A DNA stretch of 46,572 bases from Bacteroidales bacterium (GTDB taxonomy: Bacteria; Bacteroidota; Bacteroidia; Bacteroidales; ML635J-15). Under the pieces are notes generated by a model. That model had not been told where the DNA came from. It saw nothing but the letters and a program-made list of their open reading frames with translations, and did not search any database. A program made the position numbers and the translations under genes. The DNA lies in assembly GCA_027858835.1 (NCBI GenBank), contig JAQIBY010000167.1, forward strand, positions 1 through 46,572, written 5' to 3'. Shown here in pieces: positions 3,971 through 41,124 of the stretch (the stretch's first letter is position 1; each line of letters starts with the position of its first letter).

Positions 3971-3991
3971 TTTGTGGAGCTGCCGGGAGTC
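3971..3991. other. attL, 21-bp attachment core
   Basis: TTTGTGGAGCTGCCGGGAGT followed by C is identical to 40681-40701. It is the last part of the tmRNA gene (acceptor stem and T-arm side). The next base differs (T here, G at attR), which marks the edge of the crossover region. Confidence 0.93.
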
Positions 3992-22450: not shown

Positions 22451-22756
22451 ATGAACGAAATACTATTTGATGAAGCCTTTGCAAAAATGAAAGAGCTCCA
22501 ACATGGTGATGAAACTTTTGAAATGCATTTCTTTGGTTTGAATAGAACCCGGGGAGAATCAGGCGGTTTAAAAAAGTACTTTAAATGCAGATTGCGTCCG
22601 GCACTGCCAAAGGAATTTTCTGAAATAATACTATCGGATACTTTGCTTCCATTCAAAGATGTGGATAATGATGAAAACAAACATTGTTACAAGCGATTAA
22701 TCCGCTTTGTTGCTTTCCCTCCCGAATATGAACTCTTGAAAATCAAACGTAAATGA
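22451..22756 (+). CDS. Hypothetical packaging-module protein
   Basis: 101 aa, between the large terminase and the portal, overlapping the portal start by 4 bases (ATGA). It has two charged segments (FDEAFAKMKELQHGDETFEMHFFGLNRTRGES) and no domain I recognise. Confidence 0.6.
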   Translation: MNEILFDEAFAKMKELQHGDETFEMHFFGLNRTRGESGGLKKYFKCRLRPALPKEFSEIILSDTLLPFKDVDNDENKHCYKRLIRFVAFPPEYELLKIKRK

Positions 22757-24252
22757 TTACACGATACGGAAATAATCACGGAATCAGTCAGGCAGGCACT
22801 GAAAAAATGATCAGTTTTGAAATACTCAACCGGTTTGAAGCTTTATCGATTGAAGAAGAAATTCAAACTTTTGAAAAATCAACTGTTTATGGCGACCGCA
22901 TGCGAATGCAAGATTATACCGTTGCCACAAATGGTGTAAGAAACAATCTTCCAAACGAAATGAAAACACTGTTAAGCTCTAATCATTTGATTCCCGGATT
23001 AATGAAAAAGCAAGTGCGATTTATGTATGGTGCCGGGCCGTTTCTCTATCAAGAAAAAATGGAAGACAACCATATGAAACGCATTTGGGCTGAGCGTGCA
23101 AAACATCCAACCTTTTGGAAATGGCTCAGCTCATGGAAAGCAAATGGCATGGCTGATGACGTTCAAACTTACATTAAAAAGGTTGCAACTAACTATTATT
23201 ATACAGAGGATTTCTTTTCAAAAAGATTACATAACAAATCTAGACGGGTTGGTGGTAATGGCTTCCACATTCGTGGTTTGGAACATGTCAGCACACACAG
23301 GGCTCGCCTGATGACAGAAAAAATCATTCCCGGATCAGAGGAGTTAAGAGATGAAGATTTAACGTGGGTTGGAATTGGTCCCTGGGACTCACCGTGGAAT
23401 AAAAACATTGAACTATTTTCCCGTTTCAATGAAGCAGATCCTTTGAAAGAAAATGTTTCAATCAATTACATCAAAGATATTACTTTCGGTGATGAGATTT
23501 ATTCCACTCCCACCTATTTCTTTGGTTTACGTGATTGGATCATAGGATCAAACCTTAATCCAAAATATGTCAACAGCTTTTTGAAGCATTCTTTTAATGC
23601 CAGAATTCACTGTGTTATACCATCCGCTTGGTTTGCAACAAAAGAAAAGAAGTTCAGGGAGTACTGTGAAGAAAACAGGGAGCGTGAACAGCGCGGACTT
23701 GAACTTATTAAGGAGTATGAAGGCGTTAAACTTGTATCTGATACCGGCGCTCCATTTGAATTTGACACATCCATGGTTCAGAAGTGTGTTGATCTCAAGA
23801 TAGAGCAATTGACAACCGTAATGAGTGGCGAAGGCAAGAATCAGGGAAAGATTTTCTATTCACGTAGTTTCCGTACAGAAAACGGAATTGAAAGCTGGGA
23901 GTTTAAAGAAATTCCAACCAATTATAAAGAATTCATGACTTCAATTAACGATTACGACAAGCGGTCAGTGCGTGTAGTTACTGAAGGCATGGGATTAGAT
24001 CCGGCACTTTCAAACATTGGCAGCGAGGGTATTTTTAGCAATTCCGGCTCACAAGTCTATTATAATTACTTAGTTTATCTGAACTCACTACAGTACGCTG
24101 AAGAGTTTATTTTAGCGGACCTAAATTCTGCCTTAAAAATTAACTTCCCGAGAATCTATAATGAAGGTTTCCGTCTTGGTTTATACCGGAATGTTCCACA
24201 GAGGCTCGAAGAAACAAATCCAACCGAACGTCCATCAGAAAATCATCAATAA
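22753..24252 (+). CDS. Portal protein (probable)
   Basis: 499 aa, directly after the terminase module. The N-terminal part is helical with YGAGPFLYQ and RAKHPTFWKWLSSW; the middle has the polar beta/helix pattern of portals (RVGGNGFHIRGLEHVSTHRARL); the end has long helices (NYLVYLNSLQYAEEFILADLNSAL). Size (about 500 aa) and neighbours fit a portal, the dodecamer at the DNA entry vertex. No single diagnostic motif is visible, so order carries much of the weight. Confidence 0.7.
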   Translation: MITRYGNNHGISQAGTEKMISFEILNRFEALSIEEEIQTFEKSTVYGDRMRMQDYTVATNGVRNNLPNEMKTLLSSNHLIPGLMKKQVRFMYGAGPFLYQEKMEDNHMKRIWAERAKHPTFWKWLSSWKANGMADDVQTYIKKVATNYYYTEDFFSKRLHNKSRRVGGNGFHIRGLEHVSTHRARLMTEKIIPGSEELRDEDLTWVGIGPWDSPWNKNIELFSRFNEADPLKENVSINYIKDITFGDEIYSTPTYFFGLRDWIIGSNLNPKYVNSFLKHSFNARIHCVIPSAWFATKEKKFREYCEENREREQRGLELIKEYEGVKLVSDTGAPFEFDTSMVQKCVDLKIEQLTTVMSGEGKNQGKIFYSRSFRTENGIESWEFKEIPTNYKEFMTSINDYDKRSVRVVTEGMGLDPALSNIGSEGIFSNSGSQVYYNYLVYLNSLQYAEEFILADLNSALKINFPRIYNEGFRLGLYRNVPQRLEETNPTERPSENHQ

Positions 24253-27423: not shown

Positions 27424-30400
27424 ATGGGAAAACTTACCGATGACGTACTAAAATGGACACTGGATATTAATGGTGATCCTGCACGAAAAGATCTAAATAA
27501 ACTCGAACAATCAACTCGAAGCCTTTCGGAAACAAATAAACGTTTGAAAACCGAAATGGCGAAGCTCGATGCCCAGGAAAACAAAAACACAAAGGAGTAC
27601 CGTGCTATGCAAAAGCAAGTAACGGCAAATAATAAAACCATCAAGATCAATAAGACTGAGATGGGAAAACTCCGTAAAGAAATTGGAATTACCGGGCTTA
27701 CCATGAAACAACTGCGCTCAGAATCGAAACGACTACAGAACCAACTTAACAATGCAACTCCCGGGACGAAAGAATGGAAGCGTTTGAATAATGAATTGAC
27801 AGCGACAAAGGCAAGAATGTCTGAATTACGAGGAAATGGGTCTAAAGCAAATCGGATTTTTGGGGATTTTAAACAATCACTTAAAGGCATCTTACCGGCA
27901 TTTGGTTTCGCTGCAATTCTTGCCGGCATAGGAAAAATGTTCAAATCCCTTTATGAACTCAAAAAAGAAATTGAAGGAGACACAATCAGATCTACAAATG
28001 TACTCGGTGACAGCATTGGTTATGTGGAAGAACAGGCAAAAAAGAATGCAAAGCAACTAGGGCTTACTAATCGCGAGTATGTTGCCGCCACAGCTGTAAC
28101 TGCCGACTTGCTTGTCCCCTTGGGTTTGGCTCGGAAAAAATCTGCGGAGATGGCTTCAGGAGCTTTAGGAGTTGCCGGTGCATTGGATGAGTGGACACGT
28201 GGAGCTTTTGGACTTGAAGAAGTACAGCGTTCAGTAAATGCAGCCCTAACCGGAGAAATGGAAGGGATGAAGAAATTTGGTATTGTTATTCGTCAGGATT
28301 CCGAAGAATATAAAAATCTGGTAAAACAGAAAATGGAAATGGAAGGTGTTACCAAGGCACAAGCATCTGCAATGACTGTGCTTCAATTAATACAAGCGAA
28401 ATCACTCGATGCACAGCGATCATATAATTCCGAAGGGAATAAAACGCTGAGAATGGAAAAGCAAATTGCTGCATGGTGGAGAAGGAAAAAGGAACAAATG
28501 GTAGAAGCTTTTCAGGAAAAACCATGGGAAAAAATCGACATGGAACGTCGTTCGATTATCCGTCAAGCGAATGCATTGAAAAACACAAATCTACCTGCAG
28601 AGCGTAGAAATGAAATCTATGATGAACTTTCCCGACTTGCTCCTGAAATTGTTGAAGGCCTGGACAAGGAGAACATTAATATTGGGAAACTAAATGAAAA
28701 TATGCGTGAGTATAATAAGCTTGTGCTACAAAAAATGGTACAGGCTAGGGTTCAGGCTGAAATTAATGAGGAACAGGAAAAACTACTCGACATTCAAGAA
28801 AAAGTATTTGAGAGTGAGATGGGAATGATTAGCATAATGGACCGCAAACTTGAAACAATCAAACGAAGGATTGAAACGGGGACTACTGCTTCAGGTCAGG
28901 AATTAACAGAAGATCACATACGAATGTTGCAGGATTATTATGATGAAGTGAATGTGATTGTTGAAGATGGCAGCATGAAACTTAATGACAAATACACTGA
29001 ATATTTGAGCAAAACAAAAGAGGCAAATGAGAACATCAGATGGGGATTAACTCAATCTGAAATTGTCGGATATGACGAATCCGCATGGAACTCTTATTTG
29101 GAAAAAATTGAAAAACGTGATGAAATTCAAAATGATATTAATATAAAACAAGATACTTATATGAATAAGTACAAATCACTTTTTGATGGTAAAAATGAAG
29201 AGGAAGAAAATGATACCAAAGTTATTGGCTTGCTCCAGCAAAAGCAAAAAGAGTTGAAAAAAATAAAAGAACTCCGAGATGCTGCAACTTCTGAATCTGA
29301 TTTAATAAACTACAATAAGGAAGTTGAAGCCCTTGAAAACGAAATAAAACGATTAAATGAGCTTGGAACTATTAAGCCAGAACCTGAAGATGAAGAAACC
29401 GACACTAACTACGACACAGGCTGGTTTGAAAAAGAAGTAAAAGCTCAAGAGGAAATGGAGCGAGAAGCCATGGAGTTTCTTGCCAAAATGTATGAAATGC
29501 AATTGTCTGATGATGACCGTGCTGTTATTCAGGCAATGCAGAAATATGACAAGCTTCTTGAGGAAAATGCAAAATATATTGAGTACTACGAAAAACAAGC
29601 TGCTCAAGGAAATAAAGAAGCCGCTGAAACGCTTCAACAGTATAAAGATGCTGAAAAGCAAATTATTGAACAGCAAAATGCTGAAGTCAATGAATTACTA
29701 GAAAAATCTGATAATTTTAAAAGCGAACGGAAAGCTGCACGTCAGAAATTAGACCTGATGTCAGATCAAGAAGTTTATGATCTGCAATTACAACAATATC
29801 AGGAGTACTTAAATCTGAAGTATATATCTGAGGAAGAATATACAAAGCTTGTTGAACAGCTGGATAAGGAACTGCAAGAGGGAAAAATGGAATCCGTTCG
29901 TGAATACATTGCGGCTGCAGGTTCCTTAACAAACAATTTATCGTCAATGATTCAAGGCATGCAAGATGCCGAGCTCATGAAAGTTGAGAATAAATATGCC
30001 GGTGAATTAAAAGCAGCCGGAAATAATGCTGACAAGAAGTCCGAAATTGAGGAGAAAATCCAAAAAGAGCAAAACGCTATTCGTAAAAAATATGCAAATG
30101 CGCAATTCATGGCCACAATTGCATCAATGGTTGCCGATCAGGCTGCCGGTATCGTTTCAATTTGGGCACAGTTTGGCAATTTGCCCCCCGTTGCCGGATT
30201 ATTAACTGCCGGATTATTGGCTGCCACTATTCCTCAAATTGCAATTGCAAAACAAGAGCGAAATAAAACTATGCAGCTCAAAAAGGGAAATGTCATTGAT
30301 GTAATAGGCAAAGATGATGGCAATCGATACAATGCAGATGTAATTGATGATATTCGTACTGGTACTTATCGCCGCCCTGGTTATGCCTTATTCAACGAAA

Positions 30401-30729
30401 ACCCACAACGTCCAGAACTCGTTGTTGATGGAGATACAACAGCCCGTCTCAAGGCTGAATATCCTGATGTAATTCAAACTATCCGCTACGTTTCCCAACA
30501 TGCTACCGGAAAATACGATGCGGTTGATACTGCCGGAAGCTCAAATAGTAAAGCCACGGCTGTCAACTCCGGACAGGATTTTGGAGTGCTAATTGCCATG
30601 TATGAAGAAACCTCCAGTACCCTAAAACGAATCAATGAGCATCTCGATAAAGGACTCGGAATTAATTACGATTTATTGCAACAATCAGAAAGTGAGTTAG
30701 AAACAATCAAATCAATGAGTATTGGGTAA
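27424..30729 (+). CDS. Tail tape measure protein
   Basis: 1101 aa, the longest gene. Residues 1-140 and 340-900 are long coiled coils rich in K, E and Q. Hydrophobic segments occur at about 158-175 (ILPAFGFAAILAGIGKMF) and 893-940 (VADQAAGIVSIWAQF to LLAATIPQIAIAKQ), as in tape measures that also help DNA cross the membrane. At about 0.15 nm per residue this length predicts a tail near 165 nm, which fits a long non-contractile tail. No lysozyme or peptidase domain is evident. It comes last in the connector/tail operon. Confidence 0.85.
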   Translation: MGKLTDDVLKWTLDINGDPARKDLNKLEQSTRSLSETNKRLKTEMAKLDAQENKNTKEYRAMQKQVTANNKTIKINKTEMGKLRKEIGITGLTMKQLRSESKRLQNQLNNATPGTKEWKRLNNELTATKARMSELRGNGSKANRIFGDFKQSLKGILPAFGFAAILAGIGKMFKSLYELKKEIEGDTIRSTNVLGDSIGYVEEQAKKNAKQLGLTNREYVAATAVTADLLVPLGLARKKSAEMASGALGVAGALDEWTRGAFGLEEVQRSVNAALTGEMEGMKKFGIVIRQDSEEYKNLVKQKMEMEGVTKAQASAMTVLQLIQAKSLDAQRSYNSEGNKTLRMEKQIAAWWRRKKEQMVEAFQEKPWEKIDMERRSIIRQANALKNTNLPAERRNEIYDELSRLAPEIVEGLDKENINIGKLNENMREYNKLVLQKMVQARVQAEINEEQEKLLDIQEKVFESEMGMISIMDRKLETIKRRIETGTTASGQELTEDHIRMLQDYYDEVNVIVEDGSMKLNDKYTEYLSKTKEANENIRWGLTQSEIVGYDESAWNSYLEKIEKRDEIQNDINIKQDTYMNKYKSLFDGKNEEEENDTKVIGLLQQKQKELKKIKELRDAATSESDLINYNKEVEALENEIKRLNELGTIKPEPEDEETDTNYDTGWFEKEVKAQEEMEREAMEFLAKMYEMQLSDDDRAVIQAMQKYDKLLEENAKYIEYYEKQAAQGNKEAAETLQQYKDAEKQIIEQQNAEVNELLEKSDNFKSERKAARQKLDLMSDQEVYDLQLQQYQEYLNLKYISEEEYTKLVEQLDKELQEGKMESVREYIAAAGSLTNNLSSMIQGMQDAELMKVENKYAGELKAAGNNADKKSEIEEKIQKEQNAIRKKYANAQFMATIASMVADQAAGIVSIWAQFGNLPPVAGLLTAGLLAATIPQIAIAKQERNKTMQLKKGNVIDVIGKDDGNRYNADVIDDIRTGTYRRPGYALFNENPQRPELVVDGDTTARLKAEYPDVIQTIRYVSQHATGKYDAVDTAGSSNSKATAVNSGQDFGVLIAMYEETSSTLKRINEHLDKGLGINYDLLQQSESELETIKSMSIG

Positions 30730-30775
30730 CATTTGTACCTGCTTATTGTTATAAAGTATAATATCAAAAAAAACA

Positions 30776-30806
30776 TTGGTTTATCCGGATTGATACCGTA
30801 TATTTG
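30776..30806 (+). promoter_or_regulatory. Promoter for a candidate antisense RNA (TTG-N20-TATATTTG)
   Basis: TTG at 30776-30778, 20-base spacer, TATATTTG at 30799-30806. Predicted start is near 30812. It reads across the minus-strand small ORF 30848-30937. Confidence 0.65.
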
Positions 30807-30811
30807 ACAAA

Positions 30812-30933
30812 AGAAAAGGGTCGGATGCAACCGACCCTATTACTACATTAAATGAATATTGTGATGATAATTAAAATGTAGTATAAAACTTCTAAGAATT
30901 TTTTAATAGCCTCCCAGGGGGCTTTTTTCTTTT
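30812..30933 (+). ncRNA. Candidate antisense RNA to the 29-aa hydrophobic peptide gene
   Basis: A roughly 120-nt transcript is bounded by the promoter at 30776-30806 and by the hairpin AGCCTC-ccag-GGGGCT with TTTTTTCTTTTT (30908-30934). It would contain a 5' hairpin (AGGGTCGG/CCGACCCT) and be fully complementary to the small ORF 30848-30937. Both ends are predicted by eye only. Part of the hairpin coincides with codons of the peptide gene, so it could be accidental. Confidence 0.45.
30817..30838 (-). terminator. Terminator of the minus-strand small peptide gene
   Basis: On the minus strand AGGGTCGG and CCGACCCT form an 8-bp stem with a 6-base loop, followed by TTTCTTTTG. It lies 9 bases after the TAA of the 29-aa ORF. 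Confidence 0.75.
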
Positions 30934-30937
30934 TCAT
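30848..30937 (-). CDS. 29-aa hydrophobic membrane peptide (type I toxin-like or smalltalk-like)
   Basis: Not in the ORF track. It has an ideal Shine-Dalgarno (GGAGG, 7-base spacing), rare in Bacteroidota, and its own terminator. The peptide has a KKKK start, a tryptophan, and a C-terminal transmembrane helix (YYILIIITIFI). Two readings are possible. One is a small Bacteroidota phage-associated protein of the kind named smalltalk, which from memory occurs near phage-type amidase genes; an amidase gene lies 630 bp away. The other is a type I toxin, since a promoter and terminator on the opposite strand would yield an antisense RNA. A -7 box TATATTTG lies at 31011-31018 on this strand. Confidence 0.6.
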   Translation of the reverse strand: MKKKKAPWEAIKKFLEVLYYILIIITIFI

Positions 30938-30950
30938 ATATTTTCCTCCA

Positions 30951-31037
30951 TTATTTAGTGTTATAGCCGAGATCCCTTATTTTTTCTGGCGCAGCATTCA
31001 ACCAGTAATACAAATATAACTTATTTATAATTTTCAT
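30951..31037 (-). CDS. Possible 28-aa ORF upstream of the hydrophobic peptide
   Basis: MKIINKLYLYYWLNAAPEKI to DLGYNTK, ending 13 bases before the next ATG. AGGAG directly abuts its ATG, too close for a normal ribosome site. Composition looks protein-like, but there is no family support. It could be a leader ORF. Confidence 0.3.
   Translation of the reverse strand: MKIINKLYLYYWLNAAPEKIRDLGYNTK
31011..31018 (-). promoter_or_regulatory. -7 box (TATATTTG) for the small peptide gene
   Basis: An exact TAnnTTTG match on the minus strand, 73 bases before the ATG at 30937, inside the possible 28-aa ORF. No clear -33 TTG. Confidence 0.4.
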
Positions 31038-31327
31038 CTCCTTTTTAAATATTATACAATTTCGTTAAATTATTTAATCATATTTTAACGAATCTAAAAC
31101 AATCTTGTCACCTTAATTCACGTCACGTCAAATTTAAACACAATTATTATGTTGTTCAGCATATTTTATCAACATCGTTTTAAAGTCTCTAAATAATATA
31201 ATCATTTTTTGAAAAAAAGTAAAGTGTTTACAGTATTAAGATTACTTATAATTATTTAATACGGATTTTTCTGTCCTTTCATTTTCCTACTTACACACCC
31301 ATATTTGTTGGACAAAAACATACCGAT

Positions 31328-31576
31328 ATGATCAAAGCATTTGTCCGAAATTTATTCGACCAACTTTTTTACACTGACCACGGAGATACGGTAATAAGTC
31401 TATTTGGTGGTATATCAGGGAGTGTACTTGTTAGTAATACATTTTTTACAAACCTCGCAATTTCATGTGTTACTTGGTTGGTTGCCGGAATTTTTGGGGC
31501 TCTGGGGGCTTTACTTACGAAACACATTGTAAAATCAGTTATTCAATCAGCTAAAAACCGTCGCAATGAAAAATAA
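31328..31576 (+). CDS. Holin (probable)
   Basis: 82 aa. Two hydrophobic stretches (ISLFGGISGSVLV and ISCVTWLVAGIFGALGALL) and a basic tail (KNRRNEK), directly upstream of and overlapping the amidase by 11 bases. Size, topology and position fit a phage holin that opens the inner membrane to time lysis. Holins share little sequence, so the call rests on this context. Confidence 0.7.
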   Translation: MIKAFVRNLFDQLFYTDHGDTVISLFGGISGSVLVSNTFFTNLAISCVTWLVAGIFGALGALLTKHIVKSVIQSAKNRRNEK

Positions 31577-32369
31577 AGGCATCATGCAATTTATTGCCGG
31601 AGTATTATTGCTTGTTGGCTTAACGCTAATAGCAGGCCTCGGAAGTCAAGAAGCAAGCCTTGTACATGTTAATGACATGAAAGAATACAAGGTTCGTGTT
31701 GCTGTTATCGCTGGACATGGCGATGTCATTAATCGGGAATATCAGACTTACGGCAAACAAAGCCCAGAATGGACGGACGGACTTAAAGTTTATGAAGGCA
31801 GATCCACACATGACCTTGCGCTTCGCTTGGTTCTTAAACTCCGAAATGCTGAAATTGATGCTGAGCTTGTGAATCCTGAGTTAAGTGATATATCCTTAAA
31901 GGAAAGGGTTTATCGCTGCAATATGCTACATATGTTCGACCGGCGAACCGTTTGCGTTTTCTTGCATCACAACGCCCAGTCATCAAATCCGAAATACACA
32001 AGGTTTCCTCCCGACTTTGTCGATGAAGAAGGAAATGCAGGTTGGTTGAGTATTTTCTCCGGAGGAGCTACCGGTATTGAAGTGTTTACCTATTTCGGAC
32101 AATCGAAATCAGATGATTTGGCAACATTCATTATAAATGAGCTTGAAAACACATTTCCTGATATCACAATGCGTAAAGATATGAGCGATGGAGATCCTGA
32201 TAAGGAAGCCGGCTTTTATGTGCTGAAATACACATCGGGTCCGGCTGTATTAATTGAATTTCTGTTCATGACAACTTACCCAGATTGTAAAACAATAGCA
32301 GATCCTGTCGCGCGTGAAAAATACCTCGATGCAATTGTTCGGGCAATCATTAAATATGATGAGTTATGA
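31566..32369 (+). CDS. Endolysin: N-acetylmuramoyl-L-alanine amidase (Amidase_3) with signal anchor
   Basis: 267 aa. Residues about 7-26 are a hydrophobic segment rich in G, L and A (FIAGVLLLVGLTLIAGLG), possibly a signal-anchor-release type. The catalytic domain has the Amidase_3 zinc and catalytic residues: H in VIAGHG, E in VYEGRS, H in VFLHHNAQ, and E in VLIEFLF. It cleaves the bond between muramic acid and the stem peptide. It overlaps the holin (11 bases) and the first spanin gene (ATGA). Confidence 0.88.
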   Translation: MKNKGIMQFIAGVLLLVGLTLIAGLGSQEASLVHVNDMKEYKVRVAVIAGHGDVINREYQTYGKQSPEWTDGLKVYEGRSTHDLALRLVLKLRNAEIDAELVNPELSDISLKERVYRCNMLHMFDRRTVCVFLHHNAQSSNPKYTRFPPDFVDEEGNAGWLSIFSGGATGIEVFTYFGQSKSDDLATFIINELENTFPDITMRKDMSDGDPDKEAGFYVLKYTSGPAVLIEFLFMTTYPDCKTIADPVAREKYLDAIVRAIIKYDEL

Positions 32370-32908: not shown

Positions 32909-33031
32909 GCAACGTCGAACAATCAGCAATCAACAATTCACCCTGAGGTTACTCGAAGGGTCAGCAATTAACAATCAGCAATCAGCAATCAGCAATCAAC
33001 AATCAACAATTAACAATTAACAATCAGCAAT
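32909..33031 (+). repeat. Heptamer repeat tract 1 with REP-like hairpin
   Basis: A run of TYARCAA heptamers (TCAGCAA, TCAACAA, TTAACAA), ending directly before the ATG of the next gene. It includes CCCTGAGGTTACTCGAAGGG (32941-32960), an interrupted palindrome found again at 35292 and 35830. Confidence 0.9.
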
Positions 33032-33532
33032 ATGAAAAACATACTTATAATATTATCCCTCATTCTCCTCACATCCTGCGGCTGCCGCTGGGCTTCCCGA
33101 AACTGCCCCGCTGAAATAATCCGCGAGACAGACACACTTATCGTGACTGAGATACACGACACAACATTCTTCGACACAATCATCCAGCCACTGCCTGATC
33201 GTATAATCAGATTAAAAGCCCTAGCGATGATTGACGAAATGGGTTACATCCAAATGCCTGAAACAACAGTTACTGATCATTACGGCAACTCCATTTCCGT
33301 CCGCATCGTTCACGACACGGTTTATGCTGAATCCCTAAACCGTGACAGCTTAATCACAGTACTCAAATCAAACATACGAAAGGAATTGAGATCAGAAAAC
33401 ACTAAGTTTATTCAGGTTAAAACTGAGAAAAATAAAAAAACTATAAGTGTGTTTTGGCGAATTATTGTTGTGCTAATTTTAGCAGTTATCATATTATCAC
33501 TTGTTTATGTAATTATCAAAAAATTCCCATGA
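33032..33532 (+). CDS. u-spanin-like lipoprotein, copy 2
   Basis: 166 aa with the same layout as the gene at 32366: lipoprotein signal (MKNILIILSLILLTSC), stalk, and C-terminal transmembrane helix (IIVVLILAVIILSLVYVII). An 83-base stretch (33278-33360) is identical to 32609-32691, and a 33-base stretch at the start of the mature protein is also identical, while the membrane ends differ. This points to duplication followed by divergence or gene conversion. It overlaps the next gene by 4 bases (ATGA). Confidence 0.75.
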   Translation: MKNILIILSLILLTSCGCRWASRNCPAEIIRETDTLIVTEIHDTTFFDTIIQPLPDRIIRLKALAMIDEMGYIQMPETTVTDHYGNSISVRIVHDTVYAESLNRDSLITVLKSNIRKELRSENTKFIQVKTEKNKKTISVFWRIIVVLILAVIILSLVYVIIKKFP

Positions 33533-35286: not shown

Positions 35287-35395
35287 TTTCACCCTGAGGT
35301 TACTCGAAGGGCAACAATCAACAATTAGCAATCAACAATTAGCAATCAACAATTAACAATCAGCAATCAACAATTAACAATTAACAATCAATAAT
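35287..35395 (+). repeat. Heptamer repeat tract 2 with REP-like hairpin
   Basis: CCCTGAGGTTACTCGAAGGG (35292-35311) followed by TYARCAA heptamers up to the ATG of the next gene at 35396. Confidence 0.9.
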
Positions 35396-35821: not shown

Positions 35822-35993
35822 CAATTTTACCCTGAGGTTACTCGAAGGGCAACAATCAACAATCAGCAATTAACAATCAGCAATTAACAATCAGCAATTA
35901 ACAATTAACAATTAACAATTAACAATTAACAATTAACAATCAGCTATTAACAATCAGCAATTAACAATCAGCAATTAACAATTAACAATCAAT
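35822..35993 (+). repeat. Heptamer repeat tract 3 with REP-like hairpin
   Basis: The longest tract, about 20 TYARCAA units after CCCTGAGGTTACTCGAAGGG (35830-35849). It ends at the ATG of the next gene (35994). Confidence 0.9.
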
Positions 35994-36680: not shown

Positions 36681-37073
36681 ATGAGACGCTACACCTACAT
36701 AACAAAAACAAACGCCATCACCGGCACTTCAACAATTCAACGTTACCGGTCCCGTGATGGCATTACTCGCACGACTGACACCACTGTCACGGCTGACGAC
36801 AATGATTACCAGTATTGTCTTGAGCACTCTCCCGAGAGCATTACAACTGAAGACATCACACAACAATATTACGATCAGCGTATGATTGAGGTCAAACAGC
36901 AACGCCGCGATCGATTCCACAACGAAGTTGATGACCTCACTGCCGAACTCGCACGAAGGCGAGAAATAAAGACCATCACCGTCGAAAAAGAGCAAACTAT
37001 CGTTTCAGAAATCGCCCGGCTAAGTGATGAGATCTTGCAATCACTCCCATATCCCGAAATACCAAACAATTAA
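36681..37073 (+). CDS. Possible fibre assembly chaperone
   Basis: 130 aa, 3 bases after the fibre-like gene. The first half is beta-rich and the second half a charged coiled coil (QQRRDRFHNEVDDLTAELARRREIKTI). A small coiled protein right after a fibre gene is often a fibre assembly chaperone, but no sequence motif confirms this. Its stop codon comes from the repeat tract that follows. Confidence 0.5.
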   Translation: MRRYTYITKTNAITGTSTIQRYRSRDGITRTTDTTVTADDNDYQYCLEHSPESITTEDITQQYYDQRMIEVKQQRRDRFHNEVDDLTAELARRREIKTITVEKEQTIVSEIARLSDEILQSLPYPEIPNN

Positions 37074-37132
37074 CAATCAGCAATCAACAATCAGCAATCA
37101 ACAATTCACAATTAACAATTCACAATTAACTC
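37065..37132 (+). repeat. Heptamer repeat tract 4
   Basis: TYARCAA units plus TTCACAA variants between the stop region of 36681-37073 and the ATG at 37133. No REP-like hairpin in this copy. Confidence 0.85.
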
Positions 37133-39385: not shown

Positions 39386-40561
39386 TTACAATTCTGGAAA
39401 ATTATGCAGTATATCATTACTGATCTTTCCGTTCAAACTAACCAAATATTTGTCTGTTGTCTCAAGGCTTGAATGTCGCAAATGCTGCTGTATATCCTTA
39501 ACAGGAATTCCTAATTCACTTAGCATTATTGCGCCAGTGTGTTTATAGCTGTAAAATTTATACACTTTCGACACTCCGAGTTTATCACGTGTTTTCCGAA
39601 ATCTATTTGCCAGATTATTATGTCCCAATTGGGTGTATCCGGGTTTATTGCCTTGGCTGAAAACAAAGCAATCACCTTCATACATATGTAACATGTTAAT
39701 TTTAATTATTTCTGTCAAAGGGTCTGGAATTCCAATAGTTTGACTTTTGCCATTTTTGGCAATCTCTGCAGGGATTGTAATTGTCCACCTGCGAAAATCA
39801 ACATCTCGAATTTTTAAGCCTCTGAGCTCTTCCGGTCTGATGAAAGCATAATACATCATCGACACTGCCATATATAGCTGATGATCCCTTTTAATCTCCT
39901 TGGCGAACTCCTTTAATAGTACTTCAGGAATTGGTTTTGCTGCATATTTTTGATTTGATTTTTTAAGCTTTGGTAATGAGTGAACCGGACTTTGAATTCC
40001 GGCAAACTTAAACACTTCATTTAATACTTGCATGTATTTGCTAATTGTGATGTCTTCCCGATTCTGATCATTCCGTAAAAAATAGAAGAAATCGGATATA
40101 TGCTTATTGGATATTTCTCCAATAAATCTTTTGTCAAGCTGATTCGACTCTAACCAATAGTTGAATTGTCGGCATTTGCTTTTATATCCGAGCATGGTTT
40201 TTCGGCGGTATTTTGGCGTTGTCAGTGTATTGACATATTTTGATGCAAAATAAGCGAATGTTTTAAGGCTGTCAATACGAATTTTAGATGCTTCTTGCCG
40301 ATAGCCTAAGCTGTACTTATACTTAACCGAATTTCCCCCTGGCATCCATCCAGACTCAAGTAAATGTTTCCATTCCTCAATTAGTAATTCAGCCGATTTA
40401 TACCGTTCATCAGCAGTTTTCTGATTCAGGCCTTTATACTTCTTCAGCTGAATCATTTTAAGTGTATCCGGATCCTGAACCGAAAACCGGATACACCATC
40501 TTTTAGAAATATCTCCATTGCAATCATGAAGATAAGGTTCGCGATAATTCTTCTTTTTCAT
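39386..40561 (-). CDS. int: Prophage integrase, tyrosine recombinase
   Basis: 391 aa. N-terminal arm-binding part (residues 1-90), a core-binding SAM-like domain (about 105-200: LKTFAYFASKYVN to DQNREDITISKYMQVLNEVF), then the catalytic domain: arginine in FIRPEELRGLKIRDVD, YSYKHTGAIML (box II), LRHSSLETTDKYL (histidine and tyrosine nucleophile). In box II the usual H-x-x-R is replaced by Y-S-Y-K, as in a Bacteroidota integrase subfamily with YSWKHTG-type motifs. It is adjacent to attR and catalyses integration into ssrA. Confidence 0.92.
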   Translation of the reverse strand: MKKKNYREPYLHDCNGDISKRWCIRFSVQDPDTLKMIQLKKYKGLNQKTADERYKSAELLIEEWKHLLESGWMPGGNSVKYKYSLGYRQEASKIRIDSLKTFAYFASKYVNTLTTPKYRRKTMLGYKSKCRQFNYWLESNQLDKRFIGEISNKHISDFFYFLRNDQNREDITISKYMQVLNEVFKFAGIQSPVHSLPKLKKSNQKYAAKPIPEVLLKEFAKEIKRDHQLYMAVSMMYYAFIRPEELRGLKIRDVDFRRWTITIPAEIAKNGKSQTIGIPDPLTEIIKINMLHMYEGDCFVFSQGNKPGYTQLGHNNLANRFRKTRDKLGVSKVYKFYSYKHTGAIMLSELGIPVKDIQQHLRHSSLETTDKYLVSLNGKISNDILHNFPEL

Positions 40562-40680: not shown

Positions 40681-40701
40681 TTTGTGGAGCTGCCGGGAGT
40701 C
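40681..40701. other. attR, 21-bp attachment core within ssrA
   Basis: Identical to attL at 3971-3991. It covers the 3' end of the tmRNA gene, so the gene remains complete after integration. Confidence 0.93.
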
Positions 40702-41093: not shown

Positions 41094-41124
41094 CAAAAAT
41101 ACGTAAAAACTTTACCATTTCAAA
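41094..41124 (-). promoter_or_regulatory. ssrA promoter (TTTG-N19-TATTTTTG)
   Basis: On the minus strand TTTG (41124-41121), 19 bases, and TATTTTTG (41101-41094) match both Bacteroidota boxes. The transcript would start about 6-7 bases before the mature 5' end, as expected with RNase P trimming. Confidence 0.8.

Follow-up and report, generated by a model that had tools for sequence, protein, structure and literature searches.

A 598-bp gap between the tape measure gene and the putative holin gene of an intact prophage holds a moron-like candidate unit for a small peptide, paired with a convergent antisense RNA; it may work like a type I toxin-antitoxin locus (probability about 0.36). The unit would be small, self-contained and of the moron type, placed in reverse orientation in a temperate phage, after the tail gene block and before the lysis cassette. 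Its minus-strand mRNA of about 200 nt (start inferred) would end at 30838-30817 and encode a 29-residue membrane peptide. A plus-strand promoter at 30776-30806 would drive an RNA of ~120 nt ending within the 5′ part of the ORF.

Prophage and gap

The window (the whole stretch of 46,572 nt that was analyzed) is one contig (C132) of a 3.6-Mb host genome. The genome is of Bacteroidales type, judging from the order sampled and from its relatives, and its host genes carry T9SS sorting domains. An intact prophage is inserted at the 3′ end of the tmRNA gene. Copies of a 21-nt direct repeat (TTTGTGGAGCTGCCGGGAGTC) were located at 3971-3991 and 40681-40701 as attL and attR, the latter being the 3′ end of the tmRNA gene, and their positions give a prophage size of ~36.7 kb. 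A tyrosine integrase gene (39386-40561) adjoins the repeat copy at the tmRNA end. The portal (22753-24252) has 31-34% identity to portals of Porphyromonas and other Bacteroidota phages, and up to 56% identity to IMG/VR contigs. The tape measure gene was placed at 27424-30729 and the amidase endolysin gene (PF01520) at 31566-32369. The 82-aa membrane protein encoded directly before the amidase (31328-31576) was taken as a putative holin by position and hydrophobicity only. Flanking genes from ~20 to 39 kb are on the plus strand and the minus-strand unit runs opposite to them. The gap, given as ~600 bp in an earlier note on this DNA, was measured at 598 bp and has 27% GC versus 38% for the phage.

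When the putative holin, the amidase and the tape measure were each used as a single query, neither IMG/VR nor the genome contigs yielded a closely related phage; the lone holin match (L012) was discarded as a spurious frame. The amidase is common to other mobile elements, where the adjoining small membrane gene is found without the 600-bp gap. A profile of the portal recovered 80 IMG/VR relatives, the nearest with a tape measure gene being L110 and L111 (portal 47%, tape measure 41% identity). The next structural gene in these two lies 44 bp past the tape measure gene. The distance in the nearest relatives with a tape measure gene (L110/L111, L036, L113, L135/L138/L181) is 4-108 bp, and over the well-measured relatives -3 to 108 bp, so the gap is extra DNA. 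Larger distances are listed for a few distant relatives, in which the next called ORF is small and doubtful. The gene following the tape measure gene in the nearest relatives is another structural gene, and their lysis cassette is also placed differently. The module was absent from these nearest relatives and no relative found keeps the peptide. On these sequence comparisons this phage alone has the gap and this position of the lysis cassette, in line with an inserted module. The module is flanked by a 16-nt inverted repeat (30756-30771 and 31042-31057), which was examined as the possible ends of a mobile element and discounted as probably due to chance (17% of shuffles).

At four places further downstream (32961-33031, 35312-35395, 35851-35989 and 37065-37130) a 7-bp unit (AACAATT/TCAACAA) is repeated in tandem, in arrays of 9-20 copies. 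The arrays end at or a few nt from the late-gene start codons at 33032, 35396, 35994 and 37133, and could be length-variable expression switches.

Minus-strand unit

The 29-codon ORF (MKKKKAPWEAIKKFLEVLYYILIIITIFI; 30937-30848, minus strand) has a basic N-terminus and a hydrophobic C-terminal helix. The charged residues are N-terminal and the peptide ends in ...ILIIITIFI. The ORF had been described in the earlier note with a GGAGG seven bases before its ATG, a C-terminal helix and a terminator just past the stop, and each of these was recovered: the GGAGG at 30949-30945 (minus strand), 7 nt upstream of the start codon, a best 15-residue hydropathy of 2.57, and the terminator at 30838-30817, 9 nt downstream of the stop codon. 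This level of hydrophobicity was reached by 1.7% of random ORFs of 25-60 aa and by 3% of gap-sized sequences. Of Markov-shuffled gaps, 77% contained an ORF of 29 aa or more starting with ATG, and the length of the ORF is therefore uninformative.

The intrinsic terminator, with the T-rich tail TTTTCTTTTG, is the firmest feature of the locus. Its predicted stability (-15.2 kcal/mol, z -4.7) was equalled in 0/200 shuffles and its strength is like that of the terminators after known window genes. Because of this terminator, a counter-oriented transcription unit on the minus strand probably exists. A candidate -7 box (TATATTTG; 31018-31011, minus strand) without a matching -33 element gives a possible mRNA start near 31004. 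About 0.5 such boxes per strand are expected by chance in the gap, so the box is weak evidence for a minus promoter.

A second small ORF of 28 codons (MKIINKLYLYYWLNAAPEKIRDLGYNTK; 31037-30951, minus strand) ends 1 nt before the GGAGG. Its translation is doubtful, judging from its own AAGGAG, which abuts its ATG. It had no homologue in the genomes and phages searched and was dropped as a co-encoded peptide. Upstream of the minus unit lies a perfect 9-bp dyad (TTCGTTAAA-N14-TTTAACGAA; 31061-31092), a possible operator. The dyad is present as a single exact copy in the window, and at least one 9-bp dyad was found in 25% of shuffled gaps. As the window holds no more exact copies, the TTTAACGAA dyad was rejected as the operator of the phage.

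Shine-Dalgarno use

GGAGG was found upstream of 2/809 window ATG ORFs of at least 20 codons, and a GGAGG/Shine-Dalgarno site precedes 0/36 of the listed window genes. The 16S tail is sequestered in Bacteroidia, whose ribosomes fail to recognise Shine-Dalgarno sites (PMC9976891). On both counts the GGAGG is a weak argument in this lineage. At this locus it would be either chance or something unusual, and not a translation signal as in Firmicutes. It is quite improbable that it ties translation of the toxin to the few ribosomes with a free anti-Shine-Dalgarno tail, which would add a second, ribosome-based gate beside the antisense RNA. The locus would be a place to ask if a strong Shine-Dalgarno site has any effect in a lineage with a hidden anti-Shine-Dalgarno sequence. 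Elsewhere in the genome, a mobile element carries a 208-aa gene (L048:6210-6836) that also has GGAGG, 8 nt upstream, which is unusual for the lineage.

Plus-strand RNA

The plus-strand promoter TTG-N20-TATATTTG and the hairpin with T run at 30908-30934, both reported in the earlier note, are present as described. The promoter candidate is of the Bacteroidota primary-sigma type, with TTG at 30776-30778 and TATATTTG at 30799-30806. With the base composition of this gap, a full match has P of about 0.03 per strand. The consensus is not enriched window-wide, as 4 sites were found versus 4.8 expected; 3/4 of these sites are intergenic and sensibly placed. One of them lies directly upstream of the tmRNA gene (TTG-N19-TATTTTTG; 41094-41123, minus strand) and so serves within the window as a positive control of the Bacteroidota consensus. 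Transcription is predicted to start at about 30811-30813 and to end at about 30924-30934, giving an antisense RNA of ~120 nt with three hairpins (30812-30932, plus strand, ends inferred). The RNA folds at -33.4 kcal/mol, with z -4.1 versus dinucleotide shuffles.

The terminator-like hairpin (AGCCTCCCAGGGGGCT; 30908-30923, plus strand) is followed by a T run to ~30934. At -8.5 to -9.0 kcal/mol it is weaker than the well-placed window terminators (about -11 to -20 kcal/mol), yet it has the best T run. It sits 180 nt past the tape measure stop, while the other well-placed terminators lie ~8-96 nt past genes. The reverse complement of this terminator encodes KKKKAPWEA at the N-terminus of the peptide, the T run giving KKKK and the hairpin APWEA. 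Synonymous recodings of the 29-aa peptide with phage codon usage gave an equally stable plus hairpin in 0.9% of cases.

Antisense coverage of the ORF by a ~120-nt RNA, as proposed in the earlier note, held in part. The predicted RNA spans the ORF from codon 3 to the stop codon, together with the minus 3′ UTR; the start codon (30937-30935) and the GGAGG lie outside its predicted end near 30930. The predicted plus and minus RNAs have about 118 nt of perfect complementarity.

The plus elements bear on whether an antisense RNA operates here. A minus-strand moron with a small membrane peptide (for example superinfection-exclusion or lysis-modulating) and no functional antisense RNA is unlikely; the plus promoter would then be chance and the plus hairpin would at most stop readthrough. 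The minus terminator, hydrophobic ORF, counter-orientation and neighbouring lysis cassette form the classic moron pattern, and the chance frequencies of the promoter, only about 0.03 per strand in the gap and at expectation in the window, agree with that explanation. It is opposed by the close framing of the ORF by the plus elements and by the improbability of the hairpin among recodings (P 0.009).

Under the favoured explanation, in which the antisense RNA is functional, both transcripts, the translation of the peptide and its regulation are deduced from these sequence elements. The plus RNA would lower peptide output through a 3′-end duplex (~118 bp) cut by RNase III and/or through transcription interference, a mode that would correspond to txpA/RatA, yonT/SR6 and the C. 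difficile pairs. Because its predicted end falls short of the start codon and GGAGG, the RNA could act only through the 3′ overlap; this geometry excludes a direct block of the ribosome-binding site, unless the RNA reads through its terminator. Toxicity of the peptide is a guess by analogy.

Homologue searches

The 29-aa peptide had no match in Pfam, NCBIfam, PHROGs or PADLOC. No homologues were found in whole genomes of the host family (best non-self E 0.16), in GenBank phages or in IMG/VR. A degenerate PWEAIKK pattern was searched in about 85,000 genomes and 26 matches were viewed in context, all of them unrelated to the peptide; many belong to the IPWEAIKKIG family of Firmicutes. The module DNA is single copy in its own genome, and searches of GenBank phages and 384 genomes of the order gave nothing or short AT-rich chance matches. 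Rfam returned no RNA family above the gathering threshold for the locus.

These results bear on whether the peptide is made at all. It is somewhat unlikely that it is not. What is real would then be, on the plus strand, a structured noncoding RNA (or just a weak terminator closing the operon of the tape measure gene) and, opposite it, the minus terminator, with the ORF as an antisense shadow of the terminator and of AT-rich DNA. The main reason for doubt over the peptide is that the hairpin may be real and the ORF incidental, since KKKK is the T run and APWEA the hairpin read backwards; AT-rich DNA reads as Ile/Leu/Phe/Tyr. Agreeing with this are the 77% of shuffled gaps holding an ORF of the same length, the lack of Shine-Dalgarno use among the listed window genes, the lack of peptide homologues in the searches above, and a plus RNA with a promoter, three hairpins and z -4.1. 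Left unexplained are the minus terminator 9 nt past the stop, the ideally spaced GGAGG and the top-1.7% hydrophobicity. The plus hairpin, 180 nt past the tape measure stop, is also more distant and weaker than the other terminators of the window.

The points that favour a peptide unit with a convergent antisense RNA are the strong minus terminator with the stop 9 nt before it, the hydrophobicity (1.7%), the rarity of GGAGG (2/809), a plus promoter consensus shared with the tmRNA gene, the recoding result (P 0.009), the fold of the plus RNA (z -4.1), a layout seen once in 12,275 small ORFs (see below) and a gap that is extra DNA relative to the nearest well-measured relatives. The points against it are the lack of a homologue of the peptide or DNA in these searches, an ORF length that is expected, the KKKKAPWEA segment as terminator reverse complement, the weak minus promoter, the weak plus terminator (-8.5 kcal/mol) and Bacteroidia ribosomes that ignore Shine-Dalgarno sites. 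The unit is a reasonable candidate, and it is almost as probable that the 29-aa ORF is no gene at all.

Joint layout scan

The layout was scanned for in 12,275 ORFs of 20-60 codons from 1.75 Mb, mostly Bacteroidota phage and genome loci. The successive criteria asked that the ORF be hydrophobic, that it have a sense terminator, that an antisense -7 box lie shortly past that terminator and that an antisense terminator overlie the ORF. These left 748, 25, 5 and 1 candidates, the last being the prophage gap locus, which was also the only one of the five penultimate candidates with the full promoter consensus. The combination of Shine-Dalgarno site, hydrophobic ORF and terminator was unique to the locus in 397 kb. 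As the criteria were written after the locus was seen, this uniqueness is descriptive and carries no P value. The elements of the layout are observed together more than expected, an improbable joint occurrence for which all statistics are post hoc and from one locus.

Comparison with known systems

The type I toxin-antitoxin reading of the earlier note was supported in part, by a layout that resembles convergent, 3′-overlapping loci. The C-terminus, the lack of a homologue and an RNA predicted to fall short of the ribosome-binding site and start codon weigh against it, and the locus is a candidate rather than an established member. At 29 aa, the predicted product of the ORF fits the type I toxin profile of a hydrophobic protein under 60 aa that carries a transmembrane helix. 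The promoter and terminator consensus for an antisense gene overlapping the toxin mRNA are present and correctly placed, as predictions. Homology to a known toxin family was found in none of the four collections (Pfam, NCBIfam, PHROGs and PADLOC). Type I toxins usually carry charged residues at the C-terminus (PMC6563280), and none are found there in this peptide.

The closest working analogues are the convergent prophage pairs of Bacillus and C. difficile, and the closest taxonomic ones the seven pairs of Bacteroides thetaiotaomicron. The txpA/RatA and bsrG/SR4 loci of Bacillus prophages are type I loci with convergent, 3′-overlapping RNAs. Prophage pairs of this arrangement are described from Bacillus and C. 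difficile (PMC6563280, PMC5848175). The locus shares with txpA/RatA, bsrG/SR4, yonT/SR6 and CD2517.1-RCd8 the prophage site, a toxin-sized hydrophobic ORF with its own terminator, and a predicted convergent antisense RNA, which in txpA/RatA-type loci is ~100-180 nt and overlaps the 3′ part of the mRNA short of the ribosome-binding site. It differs in its N-terminal charges, hydrophobic C-terminus, lack of sequence similarity to those loci and an antisense RNA that would span almost the whole ORF, and it is known from sequence alone.

The seven candidate type I-like antisense pairs of B. thetaiotaomicron (PMC7366714) have RNA-seq support and are described as divergently encoded, with an ORF on each strand, and the TAnnTTTG-type promoter is the main one in that species. 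The likeness lies in the phylum, a small ORF with a cis-antisense RNA and a TAnnTTTG-type promoter, whereas the present locus is in a prophage, convergent and predicted. According to a 2025 paper (PMC12390103), known type I systems were confined to Proteobacteria, Firmicutes and Tenericutes before its own cyanobacterial case, and the pairs reported for Bacteroides are just seven look-alikes (PMC7366714). A compact prophage locus with all signals in 270 bp would be a convenient test case for whether Bacteroidota phages use antisense-controlled membrane peptides.

Phage morons are likewise counter-oriented small units with their own terminator, placed between late gene blocks and absent from relatives. 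The terminator opposite the surrounding operon and the absence from the nearest relatives were both found here; as for a promoter of its own for the lysogen, the one candidate is the -7 box TATATTTG (31018-31011), which lacks a -33 element. An antisense RNA is not part of the moron definition, and expression in the lysogen is here a prediction.

Smalltalk proteins (NF033879) resemble the peptide in length (~30 residues), basic start, single hydrophobic helix, occurrence in Bacteroidales and position near amidase genes. The smalltalk-like alternative raised in the earlier note did not survive the NCBIfam model search, which found no match in the peptide or the genome. That the peptide is a divergent member of this phage family in the lysis neighbourhood, with no regulatory antisense RNA, is very improbable. 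The N-terminal MKKKKAPWEAIKK of the window ORF is loosely like MKKSVWDTILK of a Bacteroidales smalltalk protein encoded beside an amidase-like gene, and the window ORF is similar in length and also near an amidase. It lacks, however, the conserved Gly/Cys C-terminal part and is in the opposite orientation to the amidase. In the NCBIfam search, the peptide had no match at E up to 10 to the curated model (cut-off 24.7 bits), and the genome had none at E up to 1, while the control search was positive in Bacteroides ihuae.

A smalltalk-like ORF elsewhere (MKDKQKIVELVVKVIVAALTAFLTALGTTSCMGCGPIHL; L104:1477-1596, minus strand) is followed by a terminator of -19 kcal/mol and an antisense TAnnTTTG box. 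Given this locus, smalltalk genes may merit a check for antisense RNAs.
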